A DNA stretch of 34,302 bases. Source: Salisapilia sapeloensis (Eukaryota; Oomycota; Peronosporomycetes; Peronosporales; Salisapiliaceae). Shown piece after piece: positions 2,385-33,157 of this stretch (within the stretch, counting starts at the first letter, position 1; every line of letters begins with the position of its first letter). The stretch lies in NCBI GenBank assembly GCA_023334545.1, contig JAADVB010000207.1:1-34302 (forward strand), in the 5' to 3' direction. The translations under genes were made by a program, and so were the position numbers. The notes beneath the pieces were generated by a model, which did not search any database, was not told the origin of the DNA, and saw only the letters and a program-made list of their open reading frames with translations.

Positions 2385-2455
2385 TCATTTTCACTTCAGA
2401 GCTGTACCGCACGGACTGACGAAGCCCATTGCTTTAAAGCCTCCCGCGAAGATCA

Positions 2456-14812: not shown

Positions 14813-15544
14813 TCAACCTGTATCTTCTGAAGCGGCGCTCGTAGTTGGAATGGGTGCTGTTTGACCGAAAGGAAAATTTCTCTCCAGTCGGCTGTATTTC
14901 GCTTCCATCAAAGCTAACTTCCCCTTGAGTTCTTTGTTCCGATTCTCACTTGCATAAACTCGGCGTTCGAGTCGGCTGACTTTACGGCACAGGAACGAAT
15001 TCGTGCGTTCCTCGTGGCTTACTTGAAGTGTCAGCCGCTGGAGTTGAAGACCCAAACTTTGAACTTGCTGCATCAGCCGACGTTCACCCGGCTCGAGTCG
15101 ATGCAAGCTTTCTCTAGTTGCTTTTGTATGTGAATTCCAACCTTCTCCGGTGAATATTGGAGAGGAGAAAGTAGACGCTCGATCGGATGCATGCAAGTAG
15201 GAAGGTGTCGTATCAATAAGCGCATTCGGTCTTTTTCCAATACTGTCCAATGTTTCATGTGCATCTCTCTCGTTCCGTTCAAAGGCAAAAGCCATTCGAA
15301 GCTGTGTCTGAAGCCTGTCAATCTCTGCCTCCATTCGCTGTTTCTCGTCATGAAAGTTGCCAGTCACTTTTTCCAATCGTTCAAGCATCTCTTCGTTGTG
15401 CTTTAACAATCCCAAGCCATGTTCTGTTGCCTGTCGAAGTGCCTAACATGACTATAGTACGCTAGCTTTTTTCCTATGCAGCAAGCCACTCACCCTTCCC
15501 GAGTCGAGGACGATCTTTGCATGACAAAGTACATTTTTGTCCAT
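14813..15544 (-). CDS. Small coiled-coil protein with N-terminal CC1-box-like motif
   Basis: Two exons, 15544-15494 and 15442-14813, with a 51-nt intron (GTGAGT donor, TTAG acceptor), give 226 aa. Exon 1 encodes MDKNVLCHAKIVLDSGR; exon 2 opens ALRQATEHGLGLLKHNEEM (residues 18-36). The AxxxG..LL..N pattern resembles the CC1 box through which dynein adaptors (BICD, Spindly, BICDL) contact dynein light intermediate chain. Heptad-rich coiled coil follows at about 30-75 (LERLEKVTGNFHDEKQRMEA) and 135-205 (LMQQVQSLGLQLQRLTLQVS, KVSRLERRVYASENRNKEL), with a Ser/Thr-rich low-complexity linker between. It lacks the C-terminal domain of its two longer relatives at 21410-23129 and 30476-33157. Its start lies 36 bp downstream of the stop of the gene at 15581-16686 on the same strand. 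The adaptor role is inferred from the motif only. Confidence 0.7.
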
Positions 15545-15580
15545 GTTCTATCCTTTATGAAGCAGAAGAAATTGTATTTT

Positions 15581-16686
15581 CTATTTACTTAGCACAGTCC
15601 GTACCACCCACTCGATTGTCACGATCTCACTTAAAGCGCTCGAAACGATGACGCCCACTGCCATCTTGCATGCAACACTCGCCGTCATCTCCGGTAGCTG
15701 CTTTACTGTTTCATGCCGGAAATCTTCCACAGCGTCCTTAATTTCTCCCATAAAAAAGACCAAGGCGAAGTTGAAGAGGTAACCCATCATGAAGCCAACT
15801 AGGACGACATTGGCAAAGCCTAGCGCGATCAACAAGACGTATACTTGGTAGCAGGCGTCGTATCCAATCTTTAACGACAGATTGGTCTGAGTTGCCGACC
15901 GCTTTTTGCTCTTATGAAGCTGCATCGCCAATGGAGCCGAACGCACACTTGATGCGACCATATAGGCGCCGACAAAAAGTGCCGCCCCTATCGAGTAGAC
16001 TGCGACGACAAGGTTCACTTTGTTTTCGAGAAAGTAGATGATGGAAAGCATGGCTACTGGTCCACAATAGACGCTGACAGCAAATTCTTCTAGCCCCTCC
16101 AGCCTGTTAAGTAGAGGTAGGCCACCCATGGAGTACAGCACGGCAATGGACAGCTCCAGTAGCACGATTGCAGAGGTAGCAAGAGGCTTGTCGAGCATGT
16201 AGCACGCCGGGATGACTGCTGAGAACAGCCCAAGCACAAATATATAGGACCAGTTCTGCACTTGCGTCTTCGTTAGCAGGCTACAGCATCAATATATATT
16301 TAGTCACAAACGAAATTGAGGGCATCGAGACTGACGTACTTGAGGACGACGCGATCTTGCTGACTGGAAGAGCTGTCGGAGGAAAAGTTGCTGGCATCAA
16401 CCATCTTTGGCTGGATGGATAGCCGAGCCATGGAGTATACATTGTTTAAATTACTAAGCGCCTGGAGAAAGATTGCTGCAACGAAGACGGCCATGACGTC
16501 CGAACGTAGCAACTCTATCGCTTCGGAGCTATGAAAAGCTGCGATAGGGACACCTGCCACACAAATCGCTGCCACAAGCGACTGTGGTCTGACGGCAGTC
16601 ACCTGTGACGTCCACTGTCAGCAAAGACCAAGTTAGAGGAATATACACGTCCAACGCACCAAGTTCGTCCGGTATTGGGAGCTCAT
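15581..16686 (-). CDS. UbiA/MenA-fold membrane protein lacking the catalytic Asp motifs
   Basis: Three exons, 16686-16660, 16614-16340 and 16280-15581, with introns of 45 nt (GTGCGT donor, CTAAC branch point) and 59 nt (GTACGT donor), give 333 aa. It is very hydrophobic, with about eight or nine membrane segments. Landmarks match MenA/UBIAD1 prenyltransferases: W..AVRPQSLVAA near residues 10-24 (compare RPKTLPAA); FLQALSNLNNVYSM near 58-71 (compare LQxxxNLxNDYxD); and PLLNRLEGLEEFAVSVYCGP near 156-176 (compare the KY.GLGE..VFLFFGP block). Both Mg-pyrophosphate-binding aspartates of the first motif are replaced (Val, Ser), and no DxxxD second motif is visible in the loop after AYMVASSVRSAPLAM. 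If family membership is right, it is probably not an active prenyltransferase. Exon 1 is inferred: it restores frame, adds an ATG and has good splice sites. It is head to head with 16830-17609, 143 bp apart. Confidence 0.55.
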
Positions 16687-16829
16687 ATCCAAGTGCCGGA
16701 GCAGGTTCCGTTTTCACAGAATACCCCTCATTATTGAAGTTCAGTGCGCCTCCGCTTTTTCCTCTTGGATTTTGTATGGCGACTGGTTTTTGAAGTCGAG
16801 ACAGAATCAAAGAGCTTGGCGGACGGAAG

Positions 16830-17609
16830 ATGGAAGAGGCGACGACGGCCCTGCCAGCGCAGCCCGAGGCATTCCGGCCAGACATGGCGCACTTGAAGGA
16901 GCCCCAGTTCGACCTCAGCATCGAGCCAGAGCAAGAGATGCCGTCACAACCTCTGAAGAAATCGCGAGGAGGCCGAGCCGAAGGAAATAAGCGACACTCG
17001 ACCAAAAGCAAAGCTCGCCCTGGTCTGCGCAAGGGAAAATGGACGATACAAGAGTCCAAATATGCGGAAAGGCTGATCTTTTACTTCAAGGAAGGGCTCT
17101 TGGACATTGGTCGAGGCACCATGCTCCGCATCTTTCTAGCAAACGAACTCAATTGCGAGCCCATGCGCATCACGAAACGATTCACAGGCAGCACTTGCAT
17201 TGGAAAGCAGGTGTATAGACCGTGTCTGGCCACAGCAGAGACGAAGGCTCGGATGATCGAGGCCAAGACAGAGCTAGCGCAGTTGGAAAAGGCCTTCCGA
17301 GCCAAAGTGGAGAACCCGAGGGATTTTGGACCCAAGATGTCGGACAGCGACGAAGATGGGAAGCGGGAAAAAAAGTCTGGCCGAAAGAAACGCAAGACTC
17401 GGGCGAATGAAGAGGCGAATGCGGTGGGACTGTTGCTGGACTTTAGCCAGAAGGCTCAGAGTCGAGACGACGAGAGCGACGAGGACGACGGTGGCGAGAA
17501 GAAAGCAAAGGTGAAGGAAGAATGTGGGGAGAAGAGAGCAAAGGTGAAGGAAGAAGGCGAGGCAGAGGAAGCTCCAAAGGTAGACACGCCGCCGATATTT
17601 TCCATCTAG
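16830..17609 (+). CDS. Probable nuclear protein with conserved stramenopile domain
   Basis: Single exon, 259 aa. The core, about residues 66-130, reads LRKGKWTIQESKYAERLIFY, then GLLDIGRGTMLRIFLANELN and CEPMRITKRF..STCIGKQVY. From memory, this block (KGxWT.EE..YA..LI..F..G.L....G..LR.FL...L.C.PMRI.KKF.G...IGK) recurs in many diatom and oomycete proteins without a known function; its KGKWT start resembles a SANT/Myb helix. A short helix of coiled-coil type follows (137-160), then basic nuclear-localisation stretches (KKSGRKKRKTR, 181-191) and an acidic tail with an imperfect duplication, EKKAKVKEE / EKRAKVKEE (223-242). Charge layout suggests a nuclear or chromatin-associated protein. It shares a 143-bp bidirectional promoter region with the UbiA-like gene. 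Confidence 0.75.
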   Translation: MEEATTALPAQPEAFRPDMAHLKEPQFDLSIEPEQEMPSQPLKKSRGGRAEGNKRHSTKSKARPGLRKGKWTIQESKYAERLIFYFKEGLLDIGRGTMLRIFLANELNCEPMRITKRFTGSTCIGKQVYRPCLATAETKARMIEAKTELAQLEKAFRAKVENPRDFGPKMSDSDEDGKREKKSGRKKRKTRANEEANAVGLLLDFSQKAQSRDDESDEDDGGEKKAKVKEECGEKRAKVKEEGEAEEAPKVDTPPIFSI

Positions 17610-17695
17610 TCAACACATCCATAAACAATAACCTGTTTTCAAAACTACAAACCAAATTCTCACAAAAAGAATTTTTCATCTAAGCACATCACGCT

Positions 17696-18379
17696 TTAAA
17701 TTACGACCTGTATAAGAACACCTCCACTCGAATCCCACAGTCGGAGAACTCCGTCCGAGTCCCCTGCCATCAGTCTGCCTGACCGTTTGCTCTTTTTATC
17801 ACACTGCCGACACTCGGTGCGGACGGAGACAGGAAGGCCAGGCCACTGTAGCTGGAAGACGGACGGCTCGAATCCCGCAGGATCCGCTGCGGTCGAGTGG
17901 GAACTTTTTGCAATTAAAACAAGTGAACCTCTATCTTCGACGCGCAGCACACGGCGATCTCGTCCTACTCAAAAGTTAGCATTCGAATGAACAGAGGAAG
18001 CATGCAATATATGCTACTATCATATTCAGAAAATTCCACCGGATGCGCCGAACCTCATACCAGGTCGAGATGAGGTGAATCCAGCGATGTAATGTTAGAC
18101 AATGGTCGTAAAAAATATAAGTGAGTAGATATGAGAAACACAAACAGGCTCTACTCTTCGACACTTGAAGGACTCGCCTCGAGGTGCTTCGTCTGCCGCC
18201 TGGCGCGACCTCTATGTCTGCACTGCATTTATGCTTCGGTGGAAATGCTAATCAAAGTCGTACACGGCGATCACACCTGTGTTGGAGCCAGCCACCAGTA
18301 GAGCGCCTTGTCTTTCAAACTCGAGGCACGTGGCTGTTATCCGGTCCAACATAGTGGGGGCATGTTTCCCACCACGCGA
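17696..18379 (-). pseudogene. WD40-repeat protein pseudogene
   Basis: Several WD40-like pieces lie in order on the minus strand but not in one frame. At 18379-18248 a TAG-preceded frame reads ITATCLEFERQGALLVAGSN then TGVIAVYDFD and hits TAG. In the middle, EVRRIRWNFLN is followed by a plausible 53-nt intron (CTAAC branch point, acceptor at 17965). At 17964-17917 DEIAVCCASKIEVHLF is broken by an in-frame TAA (17916-17914) exactly where the repeat should read F-D-L; the same frame then continues LQKVPTRPQRILRDSS...SGLAFL as if still coding. A frameshift moves the last repeat, RLMAGDSDGVLRLWDSS, into another frame ending at 17696. One nonsense codon, at least one frameshift and missing parts between repeats argue for decay rather than an intron-rich live gene. 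Which WD40 family it came from is not clear. Confidence 0.6.
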
Positions 18380-18844
18380 CTAGACTTGTGCTAAAAAAGC
18401 CTGCGATCGGCTGCGCCCGCGACCGCTTCATTCTGTAGCTGAATCATATCAAACTCCCACCATTAGGTATCCGCTCTAAAGGGATGTTGAACCCATATCT
18501 GGTTTTGAAGGGAAAGACACTATAACATGCCATTTGACAACACGATTGGGAGAGATTCTCCACATATTTACCTCTTGATTGTAGTACAGACCTACTTATC
18601 GTATCTTTTTAAAGGATAGATGGCTATCCTTTATCACATGAAGTCACGGCTCCAGGTTTCCATCAATTCCAATGTGAGTCTGATGGACTTGAGCGCTGTA
18701 AGCCAACCTGAATCAGCATCTTAAAATTCATCTGCGACCACTCTCCAGCAGCTCTATCTACGATTTGTTCCCGTTAAGCAAGCGATCCATCATAAAATAA
18801 AGCGTAGCTGTAAGCAGTGGTGGCAATTTGCATTCGGAACCTAC
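18380..18844. other. Intergenic stretch within the decay island, nothing recognised
   Basis: No frame, repeat or RNA gene that I can support. It could include further eroded 5' sequence of the WD40 pseudogene or of the PDZ pseudogene beyond recognition. Confidence 0.4.
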
Positions 18845-19711
18845 TTGCGGGCTTCCACGCCAGTGGACGCATCAGCAGACAGCTCAGCTTGGCCATACTC
18901 ATCTGCGCTACACAAACCCAAGTGGAGCGCATCCTCCGACAACTTCCGCCGACTCAAGTTTATCGTTCTACGCTTTCCGGAAACAGCCCAGCCAGATACC
19001 CACTTCCAGCTCGGCTTCTCTCTCGAAGAGCACTGCGTCACCACGCTCACATCTAACATCTACGCCAAGCAGAGCAGCATGGAGCTTGTCGTCAGCGACA
19101 TCTCGCACGCGCACTTGTGGAAACTGGGCTTCGTGTCGGCGATGTTTTGGAGTGTGTCGGTGGCAAGCCCATTGCTGGGCTGGGCGGTTGCAATGCCTAT
19201 CCTTCGCGTGATCTCCAGTTTGCCAACTACATTCTTAGCGATGGAAAAGGAGTTTCCATTGTCTACAAGAAGCAGCGCCAGCCACCAGCTCCAGCTCGTC
19301 AGTACCCAATTACGCTTAACGCCGAAGACGTTGTCTAGGGCTTGGATCCCGGACGAACAGAGTTCTATAACGCAATCAGCTCAACGGATCGGAAGCTCTC
19401 CTACGCTACTGCCCAGTACTTTCGAGATGCTGGCTCGATAAGAGCACTCGCCGTCGTCAAATTAAGATCAACAGTGATCAGTTTATTCGTACGACATTTA
19501 ATACGATGCCGACGAAGAAGTTGTCGACGCTAAGGGCATTCAGAGTACACCTGGAGTATGTCCTTCCGAAGATCGATATATTGCTCCGATTCTTTATGCA
19601 ACCATTGTTTCTGAATTTAACCTTTACTCACAGTTGATATCATCGCGTCTTGAAAAAATTGTGTCGTCGATTTGTCGACGGAAATGGTACTACGTAAATC
19701 GGATTTGGTGA
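18845..19711 (+). pseudogene. PDZ-domain protein pseudogene with several frameshifts and a nonsense codon
   Basis: Coding-like sequence hops frames along the plus strand. From 18845 to about 19114 the frame reads FRRLKFIVLRFPE...FQLGFSLEEHCVTTLTSN and MELVVSDISHAH. A net 2-nt shift then leads into ETGLRVGDVLECVGGKPIAG (from 19117), the GLGF-like binding loop and beta strand of a PDZ domain, followed by FANYILSDGKGVSIVYKK. That frame meets TAG at 19336-19338 but goes on in frame as GLDPGRTEFYNAISSTDRKL...YFRDAG. Near 19460 it shifts to INSDQFIRTTFNT, and near 19502 it shifts again to YDADEEVVDAKGIQSTPG...RYIAPILYATIVSEFNLYSQ, ending at TGA 19709-19711. Three frameshifts and one stop in a coherent order mean a dead copy. 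Whether the last segment belongs to the same ancestral gene is inferred. PDZ proteins usually scaffold membrane complexes. Confidence 0.6.
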
Positions 19712-19718
19712 TTGAAGT

Positions 19719-20081
19719 GCGACCAATTATAATTGTCACCTCAAGAAGACTCAACCAGGTCCGGTGAAACGGTTTGAACGGTAGCTTCGAAGATACTGTA
19801 CCGTGGTCCCGGTCGATGAATTTCGTACGAGTCAGAAGCACCATGGCTGTCATGAACAACTTAAGAATCAAGTATCTCATCGACGTTGTCGCGATGGCGT
19901 AATTCGGAAGCACAAGGTACATAAAGTTCTACATTGTAGTTCGCCTCGACGTAGAAATGCTACGGTCGATCGAGATGAAAACGCAAGTCAAAACATTTTC
20001 GCAACTTTTATGCGTCAGCTCCAAGGCCAGGAGCGATCAGCACCGTTCCAACGACCGCAACGAACCAACGCACAAGACTGA
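19719..20081 (+). pseudogene. Decayed TnpB/Fanzor-like RNA-guided nuclease fragment (zinc-ribbon and last RuvC motif)
   Basis: One frame from 19719 to the TGA at 20079-20081, interrupted by TAG at 19782-19784. It holds CTVVPVDEFRTSQ, then HHGCHEQL, KVHKVLHC, and VDRDENASQNIF followed by a basic end. The order V.VDE(F/Y)RTS - CxxC-like knuckle - LxC - DRD.NA..NI is that of the OrfB zinc ribbon and terminal RuvC Asp of IS605/IS607 TnpB proteins and their eukaryotic Fanzor relatives, which have been reported in oomycetes (remembered, not checked). One cysteine of each knuckle seems lost (HHGC; CSSPRRR). Only the C-terminal part of a normal TnpB/Fanzor protein is visible, and the upstream RuvC motifs are not seen. 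So it is an inactive relic. It follows the PDZ pseudogene directly. The alternative is another transposase-derived zinc-ribbon protein. Confidence 0.5.
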
Positions 20082-20277
20082 AATGTAGAGCAAAACTAGT
20101 AGTTTATTTTATCATGCAGTGCCTCTCTTTGGAGTTGTAACTGCATGACAGCTTCTTGTCTTAGATTTATGATTCATAGCATTAAGCCGTTCGACCACGC
20201 GGTATTGGATATTACAATTCAATATTGTGGGGATCCAAACAGGGCCTAAAACTACATAATTTAATTGGTTTGCGTCT

Positions 20278-20694
20278 TCAGTTCACGCCTTCGATCCGAG
20301 GCAGATTGAAATTGATTGGAGGAACCTTGGACGACACGCGCTGGTACGGCGAGTACCGGTACTTGGTCATGCACCGACGGCGGTGACGAGACTGCATGCT
20401 CATTCGCTCGGCACAAGTCCGGCAATGGCATTCGACGCTGCCGGTGCGATCATCACCGAGCCAGAAGACCAAGTCCGTGTACGAGATGTCGTCGCACATG
20501 GGCTCCATGGCCGGCTCCAGCTCGCACTTGGTCGGTACCATTTGGGCAGGTGGCAGTTCATAAGGGTTCAACGTGATGTTGGAGGAGTTGACGAGAATAG
20601 CTTGCATAAGGTCTTCTTCCTCCCAGAGCTTAAAGTCTTCCGTGTCGAGCCATGAAGGCGAAGTGGGAAGGTCGGACGTGGGAGTGTTCGGCAT
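20278..20694 (-). CDS. Small orphan protein, acidic N-terminal half and Arg-rich Cys patch
   Basis: Single exon, 138 aa, starting MPNTPTSDLPTSPSWLD. The first half is acidic and Pro-rich with a WLDTEDFKLWEEEDLMQAIL stretch that could form an amphipathic activation-type helix. Then comes CHCRTCAERMSMQSRHRRRC, a cluster of four cysteines and basic residues, and the end is VPPINFNLPRIEGVN. The frame is open upstream to another ATG, but a near-perfect oomycete initiator (20761-20774) lies just downstream of that ATG, so transcripts would begin after it; I therefore choose the ATG at 20694. I recognise no family. An acidic segment next to a basic Cys patch would fit a small regulator, but this is speculation. 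Confidence 0.55.
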   Translation of the reverse strand: MPNTPTSDLPTSPSWLDTEDFKLWEEEDLMQAILVNSSNITLNPYELPPAQMVPTKCELEPAMEPMCDDISYTDLVFWLGDDRTGSVECHCRTCAERMSMQSRHRRRCMTKYRYSPYQRVSSKVPPINFNLPRIEGVN

Positions 20695-20760
20695 CGTCTT
20701 GAGCGAAACGAGCGGAGAAGGAGAGAAGCGAGTAAAGCTGACGTTTGTGCACTTTCCAGT

Positions 20761-20774
20761 GAATTGAGGAATGA
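20761..20774 (-). promoter_or_regulatory. Oomycete initiator (Inr) of the 138-aa orphan gene
   Basis: Minus-strand bases TCATTCCTCAATTC match the oomycete initiator TCATTYYNCAWTTT at 13 of 14 positions. It lies 66 nt upstream of the chosen ATG and decides between two in-frame starts. Confidence 0.55.
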
Positions 20775-21409
20775 GAGCGTAGATGCCACGCACAAAGAGC
20801 GAAAAAAATTGGAAGACGTAGCGAAAGGACGGTCGAGTAGCATTTCAAACCTTTTTCTTCCGCGTGCCTCGGATGAACCCTGCATGTAGCCCAGTTGGTA
20901 GCAACAATGGTACACCCGAAGCGTTGCGATCCACGCGTTCTGGATGTTCCAGGGCTGCACTGGACGTCAAACAGGTCGAAATATGGAAAGGAAGTAGCCA
21001 TAACCTTCTTCCGACACGCTACTTCCATCTCCAAGATCGAAGCCGTCTCGGATAACCCACCTCACTTCTGTTTCACCGTATGGTGACAAAAGTTCGCTTT
21101 ATCTGGACGCTAATGGAAACTTGTCAGAAGACAGGCGGATTAGTTGCAATGGAGCAGCTTCGCACGGTCTAAGCGACGTACGAACGACGACTTGCACCGC
21201 TTCAGACGGATTGAAGCGCAGACACGAGGGAGATGGATGGCTGTTCAGAACCTTTCCTCTCGCTCTATCCTTCGGTTCAGACAGCTAAGTTTCCACGGTC
21301 GTTCGCCTGCCCATCTGCTCTCGACGCCTTCGACCAAAGAGGTTGCTCCTCGCTATTCGACATCCTCTTGAGCCCAATTCAACCTCTTGATTTATTTCGA
21401 TCAAATTAA
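20775..21409. other. Intergenic stretch, no gene recognised
   Basis: Lies upstream of the orphan gene and downstream of the coiled-coil gene at 21410. Overlapping short frames occur on both strands without domain signal. No repeat or RNA gene was seen. Confidence 0.5.
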
Positions 21410-23129
21410 TCACTGGACTTTCAGAATCAAGTCCGTCTTCACTTGCATACTCTCCCGCTTATACACGTCTACATTCACACCGTACTGGTCGCGCAGTACC
21501 GGCACCAGCAGCTGCAGAAACCCAGCACACACGTTCTCCTCCACTCCATCCACCCGGAAAGCATCCTTCTTGCCAGTGCCTCGGAGCACACGATGCAGAA
21601 AGTCAGTCAGTTCCATTCGCTTCTTACTGTCACCAGCGCTCCAATTCGCCACAAAGTTCTTTATCAGCGGAGACGTCAAGTCCACCGGCAGTGAAGGGTA
21701 CCCTTCCACTTGCTTCCATGTCTCCTTGCTTTTCTCTTCCAACCCAACAGCCACTGCACTCTCCAGACGTGTTTGCTGCAAGTCGTCCACCTCCTGCTTC
21801 AGTTGCTGCACATGCGCCTCCAAAGCCTTTTGCGACACTACCGCAGCACTCCACTCGCTTTTTGTCTGCCTCAGAATGTCACGCGTTAGTTGGTGCTGTT
21901 TCTGAAGTAAGCGATAGTCGTCCATCAGCTTTTCCAGATCGGACGCTTGGTTATCGATCGGCTCTGGCTCTTCCATCGAAGTCTCCGTCTTGGACGCTTG
22001 GTTCCCGATCTCCTCCGGCTCTTCCGGTTCTTTCCGACCCAGTATCTCGGAGCTAGCAAGAGCCGACCGTAGCTCCTTGATCTGGAGCTCCAGCGTCAGA
22101 TTGCTTTCAATCAGCACGTCCTGCACTGACGTCTCGCTCGAGTCGATGGCTGCAGTCGGACTCGATGGCTGCGATCCATTCGGCACTTCCAGCAGTTCCT
22201 ACAAAAGGCGTTCAACAAGATACTCCAGTCTACATCCCCTGCAAAAGTACCTTGTACTTGTAGTTCATGTTCGTCAGACTCTCGATCATGGCCTGACTCT
22301 CCTTTGCTTCCGCCTCCAGCTCCTCATTCAGCTCCTGTACTCGACTCACTTTGGCCTCCAAGTGACTGATATAAGACGCAGCCTCCTCCTGCATCTGAAG
22401 CCTCCTCTTCAAGCCCTCATTCTCTTTTGCAACACTCTTCTTCTCCCTCTCTAGCCTCGCCTTTTCGTCTACTACTCGATCGTATCTTTGCGTCAGCTCG
22501 GCGTACTCCTCCTCATTCTTCAAATCCGCCAAGGATCCTTTTCGAATGAGGTGCTCGGACTGGAAGCGACGCATTGAAGGCATCACAACCGCATTCTCCT
22601 TGTTCTGCTCCTGCAACCGCTCGTTCTCCTCCATGAGCTGCGCTGCCCGACGCTTGTACTCTGCAATAGACTGTTCCATTCGCGTCTGCCTCTCCAGCAG
22701 CTCCTCCACATATCGAGTCTTGGCTGCCAAGTTCGTCCGCAGTTCACTCAGCTCCATGTAATTCTGTCTGCGCTCGGTCTTCAAAGCGTCCAGCTCATGC
22801 GTCTTGTCCTCGAGGTGCGACTGGAAGTTCGTTTCGGCATCCAACTGCTGGAGCACTTCCAGTTGAGCTCGAAGGGCTGCATTTTCATCCTGTAGCTCTC
22901 TCGTCTGTTCCAGCAGTTGGATGCCAAAACGCGCAGTTCTTCTCAGGATTGCAGACTCTCCGTCACTCTCTTCCCCATCCTCACATGCCAGCACATCCGA
23001 CGAAAAGGACGCAGCTACACATTTTTAATTACGCCATATTAATCAAGAAGCATACCATATACATTGCAAAAGACATGTACTTGATACGGGAGGGCTGCGG
23101 GCGACCGGAGCTAGGTACTCGTCCTCCAT
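21410..23129 (-). CDS. CC1-box-like coiled-coil protein with conserved C-terminal domain (533 aa)
   Basis: Three exons, 23129-23081, 23014-22251 and 22198-21410, with introns of 66 and 52 nt (GTACAT and GTACTT donors, TGTAG acceptors), give 533 aa. Exon 1 starts MEDEYLAPVARSPPVST; an acidic run (CEDGEESDGES) precedes ILRRTARFGIQLLEQTREL (39-57), aligning with the CC1-box-like motifs of the genes at 14813 and 30476. Long heptad coiled coil follows at about 55-275 (LQDENAALRAQLEVLQQ, ELDALKTERRQNYMEL, VEELLERQTRMEQSI). A Glu/Pro-rich linker, more coiled coil and a C-terminal region of about 90 residues close the protein. That region reads LIKNFVANWSAGDSKKRMEL, DFLHRVLRGTGKKDAF, LLVPVLRDQYGVNVDV and VKTDLILKV, and aligns with the end of the 893-aa protein. 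A role as dynein or cargo adaptor is inferred from the box alone. It is head to head with the cyclo-ligase gene, 130 bp apart. Confidence 0.72.
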
Positions 23130-23183
23130 GCTGCTCAAAAGCCTTTCAAGTTGCGTAGTGGCAGAGGATTAGGCATAGCCGCG

Positions 23184-23197
23184 TCCTTCCACATTAA
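23184..23197 (+). promoter_or_regulatory. Initiator-like element upstream of the cyclo-ligase gene
   Basis: TCCTTCCACATTAA matches the oomycete initiator TCATTYYNCAWTTT at 11 of 14 positions and sits 63 nt before the ATG at 23260, inside the 130-bp head-to-head spacer. Confidence 0.35.
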
Positions 23198-23259
23198 ACA
23201 CTGTACACAGTCCCCACAATTGATCCTTTGCACCCACTCCAGTTTTGACCCGAAACACG

Positions 23260-24071: not shown

Positions 24072-24140
24072 GATACAACCAGTTCATCAAACTCGCGGTG
24101 CTTAGTCTTTACATAGACTGTTTATTTCCAATGAAAGAAT

Positions 24141-25694
24141 CTAGATGCGAGCCCCATTGTTGACCGAGTCGAGCTTGGATTCAAAAGACAGCTCCACTGG
24201 TGTGTTCACCTCAGGCTCCCGCCGTTTATTCTTGTATGCAGCCAGCGCAAAAACTGCGACGATCAGCGCCATCACAAAGATGGCACCCAAGGCCCAGTAC
24301 AACGTTCCATTGGAAGAATTGCTGCCACTGTCCGCTCCAGAAAGCTGCGTCTTCGAAACCATAAAATCAAATTCCTCGGACTCGCTGCTCGGGTCGTTAA
24401 TCCCATCCAGGTTGGCGCAAAAGTGCAGGTCGGCACCTTGGGTCAAGTACGTTTTGCAAAGTCGGCAGGAGGTGTCAGGCTGGCAACCCAGGAGATCCTC
24501 CCCATTGCTGTCAAGGCATCGTTCATCAATGATAAAGTGGGCATCGTAGTAGCTGACTGAGCCAAGATAATCTTCACACTGCGTCGGGCACTCTACCAAG
24601 TTGCTGTTAAAGTCGTTCACATCGCCCGATCGACAGAACCTGCAGTTTCCCTCCGAAAAGCAGCCAACGCCTCCGTCTTCGCACGCAGCATCTAGGTACG
24701 CATTGATCCCGACTGCTAGGTCTCCATCAGGAACATTAGCAGTACAAAAGGTCTCGTAGGTGTCTTGGTCGTGGCACCGGTACAGATGAGAGCTGTGGTG
24801 TGTCTGTCTGACATGACAATATCTGCAGTTGAGGGTTTTGTTGGTGGCGTTTCCGGCTCCTTTAAAGCAACCAGTGCTAGGCACTTCCTCGCAGAAATCA
24901 TCCACTTCAGCCGATACGCCGACGCTGTTGCCATACAAGGACACTTGAACTCCACACTCGTCTCTTTCAAAGATGACAGCAGAAGCATTATACTGACGAT
25001 CGCAAGAGTACAAGTGCTGGCTCGCGCTCGTCTCTTCCGTCTTGCAGTAGCGGCACCCGGCACTCGCCATCGAGTCGATGCATCCCAGTCCTCCTCTCAT
25101 CAAGCACTCTTCATCAAAGTAGGCAGAGATGCCGTTGTCCGCATCTCCACTGGACACGAGGTCGTCGCACACAGCTTCTTCATCACCAGCCCAACGACTG
25201 GAAGTCGTGTTGGTGATGTTCATCGTCACGTCCTCACACAGGACCAGGTGTTGGCTTTGAGATGTGAGCGTAGTGGCGCAGAAGCGGCAATCGGTGTTGT
25301 TTTCCGGTGGGAAGCATCCAATGCCACCGAACTCAGAACAGCCTAGGTCAGCCTGAGCTGAGATTCCGACGGCTTTGTCGCCAGGAGATACCTTGGCACT
25401 GCAGTTTCTGTCCTTAATGGCAGCTAGTTCTTCACACGTGTAATAATTTGGCGTCTCTTCGGTTGGCGTGAAGAAGAGGCACTTGCGGCAAGTCGAATCG
25501 AAGCAGCCGAGCCCATCTGGATCATATCGACAGGCTTCGTCAAACACGGCAGTGACACCGACGTACTCTTCAATCTCCTGCACAGCGAGAACGCAGTCGT
25601 CAATGTCTCCCACGTCTGCCAGTGCTCTGGATATGAGCGGAATCGTGATACCAAGCATGGCGGGAATGCAGGCAATTATCGAGTGGAGACGCAT
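24141..25694 (-). CDS. Secreted type I membrane protein with six cysteine-rich repeats
   Basis: Single exon, 517 aa. Residues 1-26 are a signal peptide (IPAMLGITIPLISRALA). Then come six tandem repeats of about 60-70 residues, each with C1 - about 15-20 - (V/I)(G/T)(V/I)(S/T/N)A..D..C2 - GxGC3F - CR.C(4,5) - C6. Examples are VGVTAVFDEAC..GLGCF..CRKC, VGISAQADLGC..GIGCF..CRFC, NGISAYFDEEC..GLGCI..CRYC and VGINAYLDAAC..GVGCF..CRFC; the sixth is divergent (HFIIDERC..LLGC..CRLC). Many NxS/T sites fall between repeats. A membrane helix at about 465-488 (LYWALGAIFVMALIVAVFAL) is followed by a basic stop-transfer (YKNKRR) and a cytosolic tail of about 28 residues. Six cysteines per unit suggest three disulfides each. 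I recognise no named domain. The architecture is that of a cell-surface receptor or adhesion protein; the ligand is unknown. Confidence 0.8.
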   Translation of the reverse strand: MRLHSIIACIPAMLGITIPLISRALADVGDIDDCVLAVQEIEEYVGVTAVFDEACRYDPDGLGCFDSTCRKCLFFTPTEETPNYYTCEELAAIKDRNCSAKVSPGDKAVGISAQADLGCSEFGGIGCFPPENNTDCRFCATTLTSQSQHLVLCEDVTMNITNTTSSRWAGDEEAVCDDLVSSGDADNGISAYFDEECLMRGGLGCIDSMASAGCRYCKTEETSASQHLYSCDRQYNASAVIFERDECGVQVSLYGNSVGVSAEVDDFCEEVPSTGCFKGAGNATNKTLNCRYCHVRQTHHSSHLYRCHDQDTYETFCTANVPDGDLAVGINAYLDAACEDGGVGCFSEGNCRFCRSGDVNDFNSNLVECPTQCEDYLGSVSYYDAHFIIDERCLDSNGEDLLGCQPDTSCRLCKTYLTQGADLHFCANLDGINDPSSESEEFDFMVSKTQLSGADSGSNSSNGTLYWALGAIFVMALIVAVFALAAYKNKRREPEVNTPVELSFESKLDSVNNGARI

Positions 25695-26275
25695 GTTCTG
25701 ATGATAGGTAGACTTGGATGGGCACTAGGAGGAAGGTTGACTTATGAAGACGACCTTGATACCGAGCGTTAGCTGGAAGTGAATGTCCAGCAGGGGCATC
25801 CCATGGGAGCGTTCCTACGGCTGAGCTTCTAGCAATTCAAGTTCATTATAACTTGCTACCTGACACACTCTCACCTGCGTCTCTACGGAACGCTCTTTGT
25901 TGGAGAAACCGTCTTAATGAATTCGTTCCTTTTAAATGCACTCGGAAGCGTCAGCCTTGTCTACTGACCAGTCCAGTCCGTATCGCATGTGCCACCTTGC
26001 GCAAAATCTGAGTAAATATCTAGATTCTTCACTGCGCGATGCATCCTGTTCTATCTTTGGACTGAATACAAAGCCTAGAGGGAGACGTCTTGGGACGTAT
26101 CCTGTCGAGGCCGACTCGTGGTAACTTCGGACGGGTCGCGCCCTTTCAGGCTCCGTTTCCAAGCTACACATCATAAATGGGTTTCCAATGATGTCAGTAG
26201 GAAGGCAGTATCAATTACGTATTCTAACGTCTGGAAACAGCCATCCGACCTCAAGTTTACGTGAACGGAAAGAGG
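25695..26275. other. Head-to-head intergenic region
   Basis: Separates the divergent starts of the Cys-rich membrane protein and the acyl-CoA-binding protein, so it must carry both promoters. A minus-strand frame at 25932-26174 has no supporting features. Confidence 0.5.
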
Positions 26276-27528
26276 ATGTCGACGCTGGCTTCTTATGTGC
26301 CTCTACGTCGGTCGACGAGCCCCATGAGCACTGTCACAGCGTCTAGTTTTGGAGAACGTGAGGACGACATGGCCGGATACAACCTCTCTCAGTCCATGTC
26401 TTCTTTTCGAAGCACCGAGCACTCTGGTCCCGACCACAGCCACAGCTTATGCGAGTCCTGCGGCGATCTCGAGCGCGACTTTGCCGCCGCCGTCCTCTTT
26501 GTCGATAGCTATCAAGGTATTTATTAGTATTCCCGTTGTTGTATACGTCGACTGAAACGAATTGTTCTCGGCATCAGGTCCGCATCGGATTCTGACCCAG
26601 GAGAATTCTGGCCCAAAGAAGGACTTTTACGCCTACTACCAGCAAGCGACGGTCGGGCCCTGTCCGAACAGCAGCCAAGCCCAAGGTCTTTCTGGGATCG
26701 AAGCAGCGAAATGGTAACCGACGTACATGGTTAGAATCAAAGTCTCATCGAAATAACGCGCGAGATGTAGGGACAAGTGGCGGCAATTGGGAGACATGAC
26801 CAAGCATGAAGCTATGAAACGATACACTTCGACGCTGGACAATCTGGTGGACGGGTGGAGACGTAGTGCTCGAAACACGACCGTCAGCCGTTCCCGCAAT
26901 GGGGACAACAACTCCTCGAACCCCGTACGTGTTTCTCCGTCAGCGCCTTTTGCATGATGCTGACGTTGTTAAAACAGGCTCTGAAGAAGTCTGTGAGCAT
27001 GTTTGAGCGACTGCCGCATCTATACGAGGAGATCGGAAGCATTGAAAGCCGCCTGGAAGATGAAAGCCATAAGCGACAGCTACTAGAGACTCAGTTCCAC
27101 AACGTGTCTTCTGTTCACGTACGTCCACACTCATACCATACGACTACCAGCTCTAACGTGAAGATATGCAGGAAGCTGCTATGGATGACCATTCTCATCG
27201 ATTAATGGACACGGAAGAGGCGTTCAAGACGTTGATGGAAGACATGGAGGCCAAGGTGTCGGAGCAAGCAAGAGAGCTAGAGTCTCTGTCGGCTACAAAC
27301 CGAGAGCTGTCGGATCAGATCGACAACTCCATCATCCTCTCGTCAGAAAAAAAGGTAGCAGGTGCTGGAAAGAAGGCGTGGGGCCTGATCATGCAGCCGA
27401 CGGTGTGGAAGACAGTGCTGGTAGTCGTTGCCTTCCAGTTGTACGTGTACGGGAAGCGTCGGAGAGTGCCGCAGAAGCTGGCGCAGTACCTCGTCCAGTG
27501 GCTCTTGAAGATCTCTCAGTCCGAATAA
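26276..27528 (+). CDS. ACBD5-like tail-anchored acyl-CoA-binding protein
   Basis: Five exons, 26276-26516, 26578-26713, 26771-26924, 26978-27118 and 27172-27528 (introns 61, 57, 53 and 53 nt), give 342 aa. After a Ser-rich leader, an acyl-CoA-binding domain spans about 64-160: LERDFAAAVLFVDSYQ, DFYAYYQQATVGPC, then AAKWDKWRQLGDMTKHEAMK and RYTSTLDNLVDGW, matching YxxYKQAT.GPC and KWDAW..LG.MSKEEAM of the family, including the ligand-contacting Tyr and Lys. Coiled coil follows (LPHLYEEIGSIESRLEDES, MEDMEAKVSEQARELESL). A single membrane segment near 300-317 (TVWKTVLVVVAFQLYVY) is followed by a basic tail of about 25 residues. This order (ACB, coiled coil, tail anchor) is that of ACBD4/5 proteins, which sit on peroxisomes and tether them to the ER. 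No clear FFAT motif was seen, so tethering is inferred. No single continuous frame shows the domain because introns interrupt it. Confidence 0.85.
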
Positions 27529-27602
27529 ATTGTGTTGGATTTGTCTCGTAATGTCAGTCTCTTTCCTCTTCAACATGACGTCAGCATCATTTCTCGACAA
27601 GC

Positions 27603-29607
27603 ATGCCGGCGTACACATCTGTAGCGATAGCTGTCGTCCTCGCTCTCTGTAGCGGTCTCCTCGTACTGACGGAAAAGCCTACGCTATTATCCCAAGAGGA
27701 TGCAACTCTCGAGATGCAGCAGACTAAGGGATACGTTCCCAACACGCTCCAAGCTCCTCGTCTCGCTGGTTCCCTCCTGCAGGTATCTACTGCCTCGTAC
27801 TCATGGTGTGCATCTCAAGTATAACTTTCGGGGAATATAGACGGCGTCGAAAGTAGTTCGAGTGCCAGGCATCTCGAACCTCTTTGCTGCACAAATGTAC
27901 CGCGACAACAAGATCGTAGACGTGCGAAAGTGAGTAGCGTGACCCTATCTTCCATATCCTACGGCCTCAGACCTTATGACATCTACTAGACTGGCTGCGT
28001 CGCTTCCGGACAACCCGACCTACTTCCCTCTCGTCGCGCCAAAGCAAGAAGACTCCACGGCCGTCGATCTTGTCGCGTTCCGAGATGAAACGCCATCGTT
28101 GGATGCTTCGGCCTTTCGCTACTGGACCGTCAAGGACTACACCTCTCGTTATGCTTCCAAAGAACTTACGCCTCTCCAAGTGGCCAAGGCGATCCTCCAT
28201 TACCTCAAGTCGGAAGAGCACAACAACGTCTTCATCGCCAAGCACGATGAAGAGGTGCTGCGAGAAGCAGAGCTGTCCACCAAGCGCTATGCGACCAACC
28301 AGCCCAAAGGTGTCCTAGACGGAATCTTTGTTCCTATCAAGGACGAGATGAATGTCAAGGGATTCCCTGTCACCGGTGGCACATCGTTCCTCGGCGACCT
28401 GAACGGCATCTCGGAAGAGGACGACAAGGTCGTCACTCTCTTGCGCAACCAAGGCGCCATCATCCTGGGCAAGAGCAACATGCACGAATATGGCATCGGC
28501 GTCACGGGCCACAATAATAACCACGGCTTCCCTCGCAACCCGCACAACACGAGCCACTACACTGGAGGATCTTCCAGCGGAGCAGCTGCAGTCGTCAGCT
28601 CTGGCCTCGTGCCCTTCGCCATCGGATCAGACGGAGGCGGCTCTGTGCGTATCCCATCTTCCTTTTGCGGCGTCGTCGGCATTAAACCCACCTTCCAGCG
28701 GGTGGAGCACGTGACCCCACCGTGTCCGACCGTCACCAACCCAGGAGTACTTGCCAACAGCGTGAGAGACGCAGCGCTCGCGTACGCTGTCATCAGTGAA
28801 GCGACGGAGGAAATGGAGCTCGCGAGTTTCACACTGTCCAAGCCAGCACCCTCCCTTCGCGATCTGGAGGCGTCTGACTTGACTGGCCTCCGTATCGGCT
28901 ACTTTGAAGACTACGCTCTGGATGCGACTGACCGCGTGCAGGAGAACGTCAAGAGCGCGATCCAAAAGCTTGAGAAGAAGGGCGCCAAAATCATCCCAGT
29001 CAAGCTCGAGTACCTGAACATCATCCGCTCAGCACACATGCTGACCATCTTGTCCGAGCTGGCCACAGCCACGGACGCACACTACCTTTCGCACTTCCAC
29101 GAGCTCGGACCGGAGACATCGATACTGCTCACCTTTGCTCGAGGCTTTTCTGCTGTCGACATGATTTCTGCCCAAAAGGTCCGTGCCTTTGCCATTCGCC
29201 AACTGCGTGACATCTACCGCCACGTGGACGTCATGATCACCCCAACGACGGCCATGACTGCTCCAAAGCTAAAGGAGGATGCTGCGATACTTGGAGAGTT
29301 GGACGCCGTGCAGACCAGCATCATCATGCGCTTTGCCGTCTACGCGAACTTTGCCGGCACCCCTGCGATGACTGTTCCCACTGGCGTCGATGACGATGGA
29401 CTACCGCTCGCCATCCAGGTAGAGTAGACAGGATCTTATCACACTATACAATTCTAAAGTTTCACTGCGTAGGTCGAATCGGAGCACTGGAAGGAAGACG
29501 TGATGATGCGCGTGGGGAGAGCGCTGGAAAAAGAGTACGAGGGCAAGATGCCAAAGCCTCAACTGCACTACGACATCGAGGCTCAAGTGAAGAGCCAAGG
29601 CAAGTGA
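27603..29607 (+). CDS. Amidase-signature hydrolase with N-terminal signal anchor (FAAH-like)
   Basis: Four exons, 27603-27782, 27841-27929, 27990-29418 and 29473-29607 (introns 58, 60 and 54 nt), give 610 aa. The amidase-signature family hydrolyses amide bonds with a Ser-cisSer-Lys triad. Here these are Lys207 (VPIKDEMNVKG), Ser285 (TGGSSSGAAA) and Ser308 (DGGGSVRIPSSFCGVVGIKP), all intact. Residues 5-22 (TSVAIAVVLALCSGLLVL) are a hydrophobic signal anchor, and the length of about 600 residues fits plant-type or FAAH-type membrane amidases better than the soluble GatA subunit of about 480 residues. A leader region of about 110 residues precedes the core. The substrate is unknown; fatty-acid amides are one option. 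Its start is 74 bp after the acyl-CoA-binding gene on the same strand, and its stop is 39 bp from the convergent J-protein gene. Confidence 0.88.
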
Positions 29608-29646
29608 AAAGTAGAACGATGACCTTTTGCTACTTGAAATGTGCGT

Positions 29647-30359
29647 TTATTTCTTGACTGGTTTCGTCGGACCTGATCGTGCATCAAGTTAGTCAATAGC
29701 AAACGACAGAGTGCAGGAGATGTAGTGTACGTTTCTTTCTGCTACTCTTGCGATTGTTCGAGGCCATCCGCATGAAGGCAACAGGAATGATACCAGCAGA
29801 CACAATGAGGATGAGTCCAAGCCAGTTCGTCCACGAGTCCTCCACACCTTCGTGGGAAAAGCGGAAGGCGTCGTCAAAGTTTCTATTCAAAAGGCCCAAG
29901 TGGGTCAGTCCTACGATCGAAACCCATGAATGTACAGGCCCTCCTACTTGAATCCTTCTTCGTCTGCGATACCGTACAGGTCGTACTTTTCACGACGGTC
30001 CGGGTCCGACAGCACTCGATACGCTGTACACGCAAAGTCAATCACAACCGTGTTTTGTCAGCAAAAGGACAGTTTGCATCGTACCATTCGTAATCTGAAC
30101 GAAGCGGTCTTCTACAGCTTCTCTTTTGTCTGCAGACTGCTTATCGGGATGGTACTCGACAGCCAGCTTCCTGTATCTATTACCACGTCACGCAGCTTAG
30201 GACGATGGCAGACATCAACTTCCATCAAAGATACTACCTCTTTTTTAACTGGGCTGGCGTCACCGAAGACGAGACGCCGAGCATCTCGTACAAGTCCTCT
30301 CCAGCCACGAACGAGCATAGGAGGACGAGTAGAGTGATTGCCAACGTGATGCCACGCAT
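29647..30359 (-). CDS. Small ER-membrane J-protein (DnaJ domain)
   Basis: Five exons, 30359-30238, 30176-30085, 30023-29948, 29882-29731 and 29672-29647 (introns 61, 61, 65 and 58 nt), give 155 aa. A signal peptide (residues 1-20, LAITLLVLLCSFVAG) is followed by a complete J-domain at 22-90: DLYEMLGVSSSVTPAQLKKR, YRKLAVEYHPDK with the HPD motif at 50-52, and RVLSDPDRREKYDLYG. A membrane helix lies at about 117-135 (LGLILIVSAGIIPVAFM) and a very basic short tail follows. The J-domain would face the ER lumen and stimulate an Hsp70 such as BiP. The last intron is inferred from its donor, CTAAC branch point and phase; without it the frame ends RTLHLLHSVVCY at 29693. There is no Gly/Phe or zinc-finger region. 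It converges with the amidase gene. Confidence 0.82.
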
Positions 30360-30475
30360 ACTTTCGTTTGAATGACCATGTTTGTGTCCTGTATTATTAA
30401 CCAATCACTGCAAGCTCTATGACTTTCTACCAATCCCAATAAATCTATGTCCGAGAAGTTGTCTTGAAAACCACT

Positions 30476-33157
30476 TCAAGTGAAGCAGGGCCGTGGACTA
30501 CGGTGCCGAGGTGAATATGTCCTCGGATCATGCTCCATCCTCCTACTTTCGAGGTCTCCAATCCAGAAGTCTGCTCTATTCGATCTGTGGTTCCCAGTGT
30601 TCGTCCCTGCTCTAGTGACGGAAAGTCGAAGATCCGTGACCACTGTCTTCCGAAGTCTTTTGCCAATATGGATATGCATACCAAAGAATTTCTTTAAGAC
30701 AGGAACGAAAACCTTTTCAAAAGCAGTGGTGAGTTCTGTCGTCAGCTCTTCCAGATACAGCGGTTTGCGCATCCCTGTGCCGCGAATGCCATTCGTCAGC
30801 CAGTCATACAGTTTCATCCTCTTCGATTCGTCTCCTGTCCAACTATCCACCACTCTTCTCAGTAGACCGAAAGACCTCTGCTCCGTCTCGTGACTCGGCT
30901 CTAAACCGTCACCATCGGCGCTCAGCGAAACGAGTAAGGATTCACCAACGTCATCCGTCTCCACTTGTTCATATGGCATAGCAACACCGACATGCTGTTC
31001 GAGTTGACGCTGAAGAGAGTCCACCTCAGTGAGCAATTGTTCATTTTCGGTCTGCACTGCACTCAAGTGGTTTCGTGAAACCTTCCACTCACTCGTGACT
31101 CGACGAAGGAAGGTATCTAGGACTTCCAAGTGCAGCTCTAGATGCCTTGCTCGTTTCCAATAACCCAGCATCGCAGGACTCTTGCTCGGGCTAAGGTCGA
31201 ATGATCCAAACTTTCCATGGCCTTCAATCGACTTCATTGGGGACATTGATGTATGCTGCTTCAAATTGACCATTTGTTCACTTAGTAAATTGAGCACATC
31301 CCGAAGCTTTTCTTGTTCGTCATGAAGGCGGTATTTAGTAAAGAAAAAGCTGGCAAGACTTTCCTTTGAACTAGGTACTGCGATGTCACTGTTTTCCATG
31401 GTCGACGATAGAACGTCACTTTTGCCCGTCTCACCTAATCCAGTCGATATATTGCTATCAAATACCTTTTTAAAAACATCCAGCTCCGCTGACATCTCGC
31501 CAATCTCTTCAGTCTTCTTTTCGTCTTCCAGTTTAAGCGTATCTATCTCTTCTACCAAAACGTCCTTCTCTTCTTGTACTATACCTAACTCGTGATTCAA
31601 CTCATTGATCTGAAGTTTATAGATCCCTGCCTGGACTTTCATCTTCTTGAGCTTCATTTCTAAATCTGCAAACTTGACGGCAGTGATTCCTGTCGTTGCC
31701 ACTCGGGCACTAGCAGACCGGTATAGTGTCGAACGCTCTTTGTCGGGTATCTGCTTTGGTAGTGCACCAAATCGTAAAGCATTCTCTGTCATATCAGGAC
31801 TAACTTCGCCATTAAGGTTTCCATCTGAAGAACCACATTGACTTTGCGCCATGTCCGATACACCGTCTGCTGGATTCTTTCCAACTATGCTGTCTGTAAT
31901 CATCGTCTCCTGTGTCACATCAAGTTCATAGTATGTTCTCATAAAGGTTCGAAGGGTCCGAATGAGCTTAATGGATTCCTGTTTCTCCGTCTCCAAGACA
32001 GAAATTCGCGCCTGAAGGTCTGACTCTTCTCGGTCAAAATCAATCCCATTCTCCCCATCACAACTTTCAGTCTGTTCGTCATCAAGATCTGGATGTGTGC
32101 ATTCATTTAGCACATCCTGCATGCTCGAAGTAAGTTCAGTCTCTGCTTTTGCAAAGAGCTGGTACGCAATACTTTCACCTGAGCTTGCAGTGGTAGCCTG
32201 GTCGGTAACACCATCTCTCATATCTACCGTGACTTCGCCCCGTCCACTTTCACATCCCAATGCATCGCTTTCAAAGCTTAGTTTTTGATACTCTTCCAAG
32301 GTTTTACGAAGACTGTTGACGACTTCTTTTTCCTCTTCTCTCTCCTTTTCAAGAGCTTCAATTTGTCGTTCTCGCTCCTCGAGTTGAGTAACAAGCAAAC
32401 GATTGTAGTCTTGTGCTTCTTCCAACTCTACTTGGATGTGCTCCATACTTTTCAATTGTTTCTTTGTCAGGTGAAGTTGCTGCATCAGGTCTCTGCTTTC
32501 ACGAAAAGATTCCACGTATCGTTCTTCAGCTTCCGCTGCTCGCCGTTCTAACTCGCTAAGTAGCTTTGTTGTTTCCGCTTTTGCGTTCCGACTAGCATGC
32601 TCCATGTCCTCTTGGGTTGAGCTGGAACTTATCATTGGTCGTGGGGTGGTGTCGATATACGTAGGCCTTCTAGTCGTACATAGCGCTTCTTTTGAAGAAG
32701 ATTGACCAGGTGTTAACGAATAGTCTACTGTAGGCATACACGATGACCGTCGAGCTGACCTTCCTGTGACTGTTGAAAAATAAGAGTTATGGTTTTCCTC
32801 ACTATCTGTTGAGGGAGTTGGAGGTAGCAATGGGTAGGTCATCTGTGATTTAACATGATCTAGCTCCGAAGTTAGCGTTTGGGTCTCTTGCAAAGCTTGC
32901 CTCCATCTTTTGGTCATCTCGTCCAAATGCAATTCCGTTTCATGCAGTTGGCGAAACAGAGAGTTTTGCCGTACTTGCATATCGCTCTGTTGACTATGTA
33001 GATCCTCGATCTCCAGTTGGAGCTCCGCGTTTTCTTCGAGAAGCCGAATACCTGCTCGAGCAGCTTGCTGGAGTGCTCTTGTTTCGTCGAATTCATCGTC
33101 CTGTTCACCCAATGATGAGTTGTCATCCTCACCACAACCTTCTGAAAGTGAAGCCAT
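30476..33157 (-). CDS. Large CC1-box-like coiled-coil protein with conserved C-terminal domain (893 aa)
   Basis: Single exon, 893 aa. An acidic lead-in (LGEQDDEFDETR) precedes ALQQAARAGIRLLEENAEL (28-46), a good match to the dynein-adaptor CC1 box (compare the AAxxG..LL..N..L pattern of Spindly, BICD and BICDL). Nearly continuous coiled coil follows in blocks at about 40-110, 185-300 (ELERRAAEAEERYVESFRES, EEREREIEAL-type heptads), 385-410 and 510-570 (LEMKLKKMKVQAGIYKLQIN), separated by Ser/Thr-rich linkers, with a late coiled block near 690-730. The C-terminal domain at about 760-847 reads LLRRVVDSWTGDESKRMKLY, DWLTNGIRGTGMRKPLYL, VFVPVLKKFFGMHIHIG and VVTDLRLSV, and aligns with the 533-aa protein. 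A 46-residue basic tail ends it. A cytosolic, elongated motor or membrane-trafficking adaptor is inferred; no direct evidence. Confidence 0.75.
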   Translation of the reverse strand: MASLSEGCGEDDNSSLGEQDDEFDETRALQQAARAGIRLLEENAELQLEIEDLHSQQSDMQVRQNSLFRQLHETELHLDEMTKRWRQALQETQTLTSELDHVKSQMTYPLLPPTPSTDSEENHNSYFSTVTGRSARRSSCMPTVDYSLTPGQSSSKEALCTTRRPTYIDTTPRPMISSSSTQEDMEHASRNAKAETTKLLSELERRAAEAEERYVESFRESRDLMQQLHLTKKQLKSMEHIQVELEEAQDYNRLLVTQLEERERQIEALEKEREEEKEVVNSLRKTLEEYQKLSFESDALGCESGRGEVTVDMRDGVTDQATTASSGESIAYQLFAKAETELTSSMQDVLNECTHPDLDDEQTESCDGENGIDFDREESDLQARISVLETEKQESIKLIRTLRTFMRTYYELDVTQETMITDSIVGKNPADGVSDMAQSQCGSSDGNLNGEVSPDMTENALRFGALPKQIPDKERSTLYRSASARVATTGITAVKFADLEMKLKKMKVQAGIYKLQINELNHELGIVQEEKDVLVEEIDTLKLEDEKKTEEIGEMSAELDVFKKVFDSNISTGLGETGKSDVLSSTMENSDIAVPSSKESLASFFFTKYRLHDEQEKLRDVLNLLSEQMVNLKQHTSMSPMKSIEGHGKFGSFDLSPSKSPAMLGYWKRARHLELHLEVLDTFLRRVTSEWKVSRNHLSAVQTENEQLLTEVDSLQRQLEQHVGVAMPYEQVETDDVGESLLVSLSADGDGLEPSHETEQRSFGLLRRVVDSWTGDESKRMKLYDWLTNGIRGTGMRKPLYLEELTTELTTAFEKVFVPVLKKFFGMHIHIGKRLRKTVVTDLRLSVTRAGTNTGNHRSNRADFWIGDLESRRMEHDPRTYSPRHRSPRPCFT

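Follow-up and report, generated by a model that had tools for sequence, protein, structure and literature searches.

The stretch of DNA analysed here—the window, 34,302 nt of contig JAADVB010000207.1 from the oomycete Salisapilia sapeloensis (GCA_023334545.1)—contains three candidate genes, G1, G2, and G3, all on the minus strand, whose products carry a short N-terminal box resembling the CC1 box of dynein adaptors. The original prediction, made from the letters of the window, proposed that the three encode a lineage-specific family of such adaptors. The gene limits it gave (14813-15544 for G1, 21410-23129 for G2, and 30476-33157 for G3) agree with our spliced models, and the boxes lie on the minus strand as it claimed: ALRQATEHGLGLLKHNEEM in G1 (15386-15442), ILRRTARFGIQLLEQTREL in G2 (22893-22949), and ALQQAARAGIRLLEENAEL in G3 (33020-33076). 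The acidic run that it placed ahead of the box in two of the genes is also there, with D or E at 9 of 20 residues in G3 and 7 of 20 in G2; G1 has none (2 of 17).

G3 is an open frame of one exon encoding 893 aa and represents, in this window, a coiled-coil protein conserved among oomycetes. Its acidic run (residues 8-27, 33077-33136) adjoins the box, and the box opens a first coiled coil (residues 28 to ~108, 32834-33076), which was placed by alignment, its end being set by eye at the PLLPPTP break. Farther along are LVEEI (31544-31558), a possible counterpart of a conserved LΘxEΘ (Spindly-motif-like) site with which it is unaligned; a C-terminal domain common to G2 (30620-30871, E 1e-29); and Cys 891 (30485-30487), which aligns with a cysteine at position -4 of related proteins. 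G2 is modelled with three exons (23081-23129, 22251-23014, and 21410-22198, the last including the stop), encoding 533 aa from a start at 23129. The donor site of exon 1 is uncertain: 3 of the 10 GT sites tried are stop-free across the 80 residues shown. The C-terminal domain of G2 (21419-21667) is homologous to that of G3 by profile matches. Exon 3 of G2 also holds two adjacent 51-nt direct repeats (21918-22019), 71% alike, that code for NQAS-containing units. G1 totals 226 aa in two exons (15494-15544 and 14813-15442, the latter including the stop) separated by a 51-nt GT..AG intron; exon 2 starts exactly at the box and encodes a coiled-coil-like product.

The family of G3 and its C-terminal domain

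How widely is G3 conserved among oomycetes? A sequence search with the whole of G3 returned one relative, P0001, and residues 540-660 of P0001, used as a query, retained 19 of 120 candidates at E ≤ 0.1, P0001 included. The 19 relatives (P0001-P0019) were chosen by the C-terminal domain only, except for P0001, chosen by whole G3. Their named sources are Phytophthora and Nothophytophthora (12 of 19), and the databases call them "hypothetical," "uncharacterized," "unnamed," or "G protein gamma domain-containing." Two of them, P0015 and P0017 (474 and 475 aa), start downstream of the box region. AARAGIRLL is present in all 17 relatives that reach the N terminus, 16 of which were selected without sight of that end. 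An acidic run precedes the box in these 17 as well, with 10-14 D or E among the 20 residues ending four before the box AA. The G3 family is common to Phytophthora and Nothophytophthora, and these comparisons indicate that G3 is a conserved oomycete protein.

The C-terminal domain, ~85 residues common to G2 and G3, was overlooked in the original prediction. A profile built from G3 and its relatives, with G2 left out, finds the domain in G2 at E 6e-21 and does not find it in G1. It occurs twice in the 19.5 Mb of the window's assembly (perhaps incomplete), and both copies lie within the window; G2 and G3 are therefore linked paralogues ~7 kb apart, G2 being, as judged from sequence, a diverged one. 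A single search for relatives of G2 retained none of 38 candidates at E ≤ 0.1. The domain is predicted, with middling confidence, to fold as αα-β-α-ββ, and structural comparison gave no confident match. What was proposed as a lineage-specific family of three copies thus comes down to two linked paralogues, one of which, G3, also has counterparts in Phytophthora and Nothophytophthora, plus a doubtful third member.

How far does the box exceed chance? The published CC1-box signature is AAXXG (PMC9481740). G3 has AARAG followed by LL and EN, which fits this signature, and G2 (TARFG) and G1 (ATEHG) each depart from it by one letter. Over the 20 residues from the AA, G3 is identical to Spindly at 8 positions, to BICD2 at 9, and to TRAK1 at 9; the same positions among these three adaptors themselves give 8, 5, and 6 identities. 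(The TRAK1 letters were checked by their 115-bit match to the Pfam family HAP1_N.) The box is also the best-kept 14-residue window between G3 and its relatives, with a mean identity of 94%—the top of 342 windows, whose median is 33%—and the windows ranked second and third are both in the C-terminal domain. A second measure, computed column by column over the full 20 rows with gaps weighted, is less favorable: it ranks the box 13th among windows that do not overlap, after several coil stretches and most of the C-terminal domain, because two rows lack the box and the Phytophthora sequences are alike nearly throughout.

Shuffle tests separate the two remaining boxes. When G3 and its relatives supply an ungapped BLOSUM matrix, the top window of G2 is the box, equalled by none of 20,000 heptad-preserving shuffles, and the top window of G1 is likewise the box, equalled by 18 of 20,000. 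A 54-position hidden Markov model (HMM) of the same rows leaves the G2 box with 13 of 5,000 shuffles as good; a 24-position HMM gives it 3.1 bits (at least 4 bits in 17 of 5,000 shuffles and at least 2 bits in 72), with G1 unreported. By the 54-position HMM, the best stretch of G1 lies outside the box and is equalled by 460 of 5,000 shuffles, and the box itself scores -0.8 bits, equalled by 1,227 of 5,000. The box thus appears to exceed chance in G3 and G2, the C-terminal domain adding support for the latter, and in a method-dependent way in G1. A loose box pattern matched the six frames of the window only at the three boxes, which it had been written to fit, and a composite of the box region searched against the genome found G3 plus a single weak hit, on C334 (E 0.16).

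A family of three equal members was accordingly rejected, as G1 lacks the C-terminal domain and its box, weaker than the other two, reaches significance with just one of the scoring methods. Does G1 belong at all? We rather think that it does not and that G1 encodes an ordinary short coiled-coil protein whose box resembles the others by chance. Besides the missing domain and the HMM results, G1 is without an acidic run and has ATEHG for AAxxG; against the full-length family profile it scores 6.6 bits, at a site other than the box; and the genome holds no further copy save one weak match (E 0.045). Membership is favored by the ungapped matrix, by the best local match between G1 and G3, which is the box plus both flanks (53 columns, one-to-one E 0.003), by 9 of 20 identities between the G1 box and TRAK1, and by the strand and neighborhood that G1 shares with G2 and G3.

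Likeness to dynein adaptors

What might a protein with such a box do? G3 and its oomycete relatives are, in our assessment, probably dynein adaptor-like proteins that work through a CC1 box. The resemblance originally claimed for all three genes holds best for G3—by its letters, its conservation, its position in a helix, and a potential partner encoded in the same genome—and less well for G2 and G1, each one letter off.

The partner is the dynein light intermediate chain (LIC), which the S. sapeloensis genome encodes (PF05783, 41.5 bits against a cut-off of 19.7). The matched stretch includes LTNFFNNLLS, which has the FFxxLL spacing of the docking helix. In human LIC1, mutating F447/F448 or L451/L452 of helix 1 abolished binding to all six adaptors tested, and the equivalent residues in the worm are required in vivo (PMC6336354). 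The LIC-helix peptide, searched against the Protein Data Bank (PDB), gave two chance matches and no LIC, so the identity of the docking helix rests on the spacing and the surrounding LIC domain. The genome also encodes dynamitin (C200:5018-6079, L004) and a HOOK_N protein (C38:49016-49306, L014). The dynamitin stretch crosses one TAG and one TAA, perhaps introns. Dynactin p62 was not found in the genome by searches whose positive controls were equally silent; a survey reports Arp11 in oomycetes and did not find dynactin3 in stramenopiles (PMC3583065).

Do sequence profiles lead to known adaptors? Among 177,635 PDB sequences, a 62-position profile that includes G2 matched 36 at E ≤ 10. In four of these—Spindly, BICDL1 (two sequences), and BICD2, at E 0.07 to 3—the best stretch lies over AARAG, with the box in register (9 of 20 identities for BICD2); in the other 32 it falls in the coil that follows. 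The profile check suggested in the original prediction therefore succeeds in part, in that the 62-position profile reaches known adaptors over the box, whereas shorter profiles and single queries fail.

Several results weigh against an adaptor reading here. The top match to a known adaptor (Spindly, 8arf_B) has an E of only 0.072, which is not significant. Box profiles of 24 and 39 positions found no adaptor in the PDB, and the latter picked up an unrelated ParD antitoxin (RAGLRLLEENE) and PA2260; G1, G2, G3, and P0005 as single queries found no CC1-box adaptor. The box matrix selects Spindly and BICD2 only moderately, with 234 and 167 of 20,000 shuffles as good. The idea of the box as a fully specific sequence signal was rejected on the results of the profiles and single queries. 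HAP1_N (PF04849) tells a similar story. It matches pieces of P0002 (E 3e-4) and P0003 (E 1e-3) with the box AA, as placed by the match ends, at profile positions 83-84, where the AA of TRAK1 also falls. The match peaks, however, at 20.4 bits against a gathering cut-off of 33.9, Fungal_TACC and other coiled-coil families score alike, and 2 of 20 family members reach E ≤ 0.1 (full-length P0003 has 3e-4 and P0002 0.29). The P0005 piece meets HAP1_N in a different register (E 0.39), and the G3, G2, and G1 pieces gave no match. Against the genome of S. sapeloensis, HAP1_N had five weak matches, all below the cut-off, and it also matched 4 of 14 control genomes. The letters alone are a lead rather than proof; the case rests on letters, position, constraint, and partner together.

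A rival reading makes G3 and its relatives a different kind of protein: a conserved oomycete coiled-coil scaffold of the centrosome, Golgi, or flagellar base, with an N-terminal helix that binds some other helix-shaped partner and with AAxxG as the small-residue face of an unrelated interface. Profile searches do yield mostly generic coiled coils, Pfam coils of the TACC, GIT, ATG16, and Cep57 types appear at like E-values, and the C-terminal domain is structurally unplaced with any confidence. On the other hand, what G3 and its relatives keep is the CC1-box signature as published, the genome also encodes a LIC helix to match, and the four profile matches that cover the box are CC1-box adaptors. 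We give such a scaffold perhaps a minor share of the probability and continue to prefer a dynein adaptor-like protein.

How do the coils compare with those of known adaptors? We modelled the relative P0005 with AlphaFold as a single chain from 20 sequences (mean pLDDT 56, pTM 0.21). The model predicts a 98-residue helix (46-143) with the box AA nine residues in (block pLDDT 86-93 over 51-130, lower at the ends), a low-confidence stretch (144-217), a helix of 89 residues (216-304), another low-confidence stretch (309-370), and a helix at 370-401. The first coil would thus be short and broken, with ~70 low-confidence residues behind it, whereas the CC1 of BICD2, BICDL1, HOOK, and TRAK1 is 35-39 nm long and more or less unbroken (PMC9481740). 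This difference counts against the adaptor reading, and because of it we do not count the family among the canonical activating adaptors; a short CC1 is described for JIP3 and RILP as well (PMC9481740).

The predicted helix at 370-401 opens with RDENDRLLAEL, in which LLAEL at 377 is the only LΘxEΘ site of P0005. Exactly one such site occurs in 18 of the 19 relatives, the exception being P0010, which lacks that region. Three reservations apply. G3 has three LΘxEΘ matches, none aligned to the site of its relatives; G2 has none; and the pattern is cheap, since a conserved site also turns up for 18 of 400 patterns built to that shape. For this last reason, we regard LΘxEΘ as weak support for a Spindly motif.

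HOOK proteins likewise bind LIC as dynein adaptors, but through an N-terminal Hook domain and without a CC1 box (PMC6336354). HOOK_N had no match in the scanned members of the G3 family.

If the adaptor reading is right, a G3-family protein would dimerise through its coiled coils, and the AAxxG box, lying early in the first coil, would form a groove in which the FFxxLL helix of LIC docks. The later coil that opens with LΘxEΘ may touch the pointed end of dynactin. At the other end, cargo for transport, probably a membrane or a prenyl-binding partner, could be attached by the C-terminal domain, joined in the relatives by a basic CaaX-like tail. G2 retains the box and the C-terminal domain, without LΘxEΘ or a CaaX-like tail; G1, with its weaker box, may not belong. 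The CC1-box adaptors of the papers cited are animal proteins, with Spindly in fungi too, and no publication joining the CC1 box to oomycetes turned up in the literature searched, which held one that mentions Spindly, dynein, and stramenopiles together. A box kept almost letter for letter in a conserved family outside that group would suggest that the handshake between LIC helix and CC1 box is older, or arose more than once, and oomycetes would gain a candidate cargo adaptor besides HOOK.

The C-terminal tail and the question of Spindly

All 19 relatives have a cysteine at -4 and end in I, L, or M (CANI in 12, CSGL in 3, and CTSI, CANM, CTNI, and CVNI in one each), with basic residues before these CaaX-like ends. 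G3 itself has its cysteine at -3, in the ending CFT, a point against the adaptor reading. A CaaX-type end is also found in G protein gamma, a protein of ~70 aa. Seven relatives (P0006, P0007, P0008, P0010, P0012, P0014, and P0016) carry that label in UniRef, which we rejected: they are 464-791 aa long, and the label is probably wrong because the Pfam G-gamma family is unmatched in the 20 members at E ≤ 0.1, a threshold at which 15 other Pfam families are matched by at least one of them.

Could these tails be lipid anchors? CaaL/I/M ends belong to the geranylgeranyltransferase I class, and the farnesyl enzyme accepts certain three-residue CaX ends (PMC11152559). As the a2 residue in the relatives is N, S, or G and not aliphatic, their prenylation is plausible and unsure. 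The tail of the relatives is, on this reasoning, a plausible lipid anchor.

Broken coils, an N-terminal AAxxG box, an LΘxEΘ site past the break, and a C-terminal CaaX-like end are features of Spindly as well. Wu et al. describe a stramenopile/alveolate lineage with RZZ and a CENP-E Cys at -4 and no apparent Spindly orthologue, and they date Spindly to Obazoa (PMC10630089). Three Spindly-like features in Spindly's own order make the G3 family a candidate for this stramenopile gap. As a prenylated CC1-box adaptor, inherited or re-invented, it could complete a corona resembling that of RZZ and Spindly, and its tail bears on the published question of whether stramenopiles that have RZZ and lack a recognised Spindly are able to build a corona-like structure (PMC10630089). 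We nevertheless consider it unlikely that the family is the missing counterpart, and a trifle more unlikely that it is a prenylated kinetochore adaptor acting with RZZ. The preserved order of features and the reported gap favor it. Against it, the similarity to Spindly is over the box alone (8 of 20 residues); the G3 family adds a C-terminal domain, where Spindly has a C-terminal tail said to lack structure (PMC9481740); the relatives' tails are of the geranylgeranyl type, while Spindly is farnesylated; and the window's own G3 has its cysteine one place off. The origin assigned to Spindly by Wu et al. also opposes it. Rod_C and Zwilch were not found in the genome, in searches whose controls were equally silent.

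The C-terminal domain and the tail class speak for a cargo other or wider than that of Spindly. If not bound to the kinetochore, the G3 family could represent a new class of membrane-anchored dynein adaptor with its own cargo domain.

Neighbouring features of the window

Within G2, an inverted repeat of 26 nt (24 of 26 paired) has arms at 22830-22855 and 22906-22931 with a 50-nt loop, its second arm lying inside the box. Among repeats with loops of 3-100 nt it ranks first in the window, the next unrelated one having 19 of 26 paired, and its transcript is predicted to fold at -60 kcal/mol (z -6.2). The repeat has the look of a copy of the box strand made into the neighboring coil by template switching, and it leaves the homology argument unchanged because that argument rests on G3 and the C-terminal domain.

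The remaining genes are of mixed kind. An RSN1/OSCA-type channel (2438-4906, plus strand), a SNF2 helicase with chromo domains (CHD-like; 4987-10032, minus strand), and an amidase (27943-29427, plus strand) were recognised. Two further minus-strand genes had no Pfam match at E ≤ 0.001: a cysteine-rich protein of 527 aa with repeated modules and a C-terminal hydrophobic segment (24141-25724) and a secreted-looking protein (1-654), which resembles oomycete LPMO-like proteins. Near the end of a charged open frame on the plus strand, two 33-nt tandem units (17482-17547) are 85% alike.

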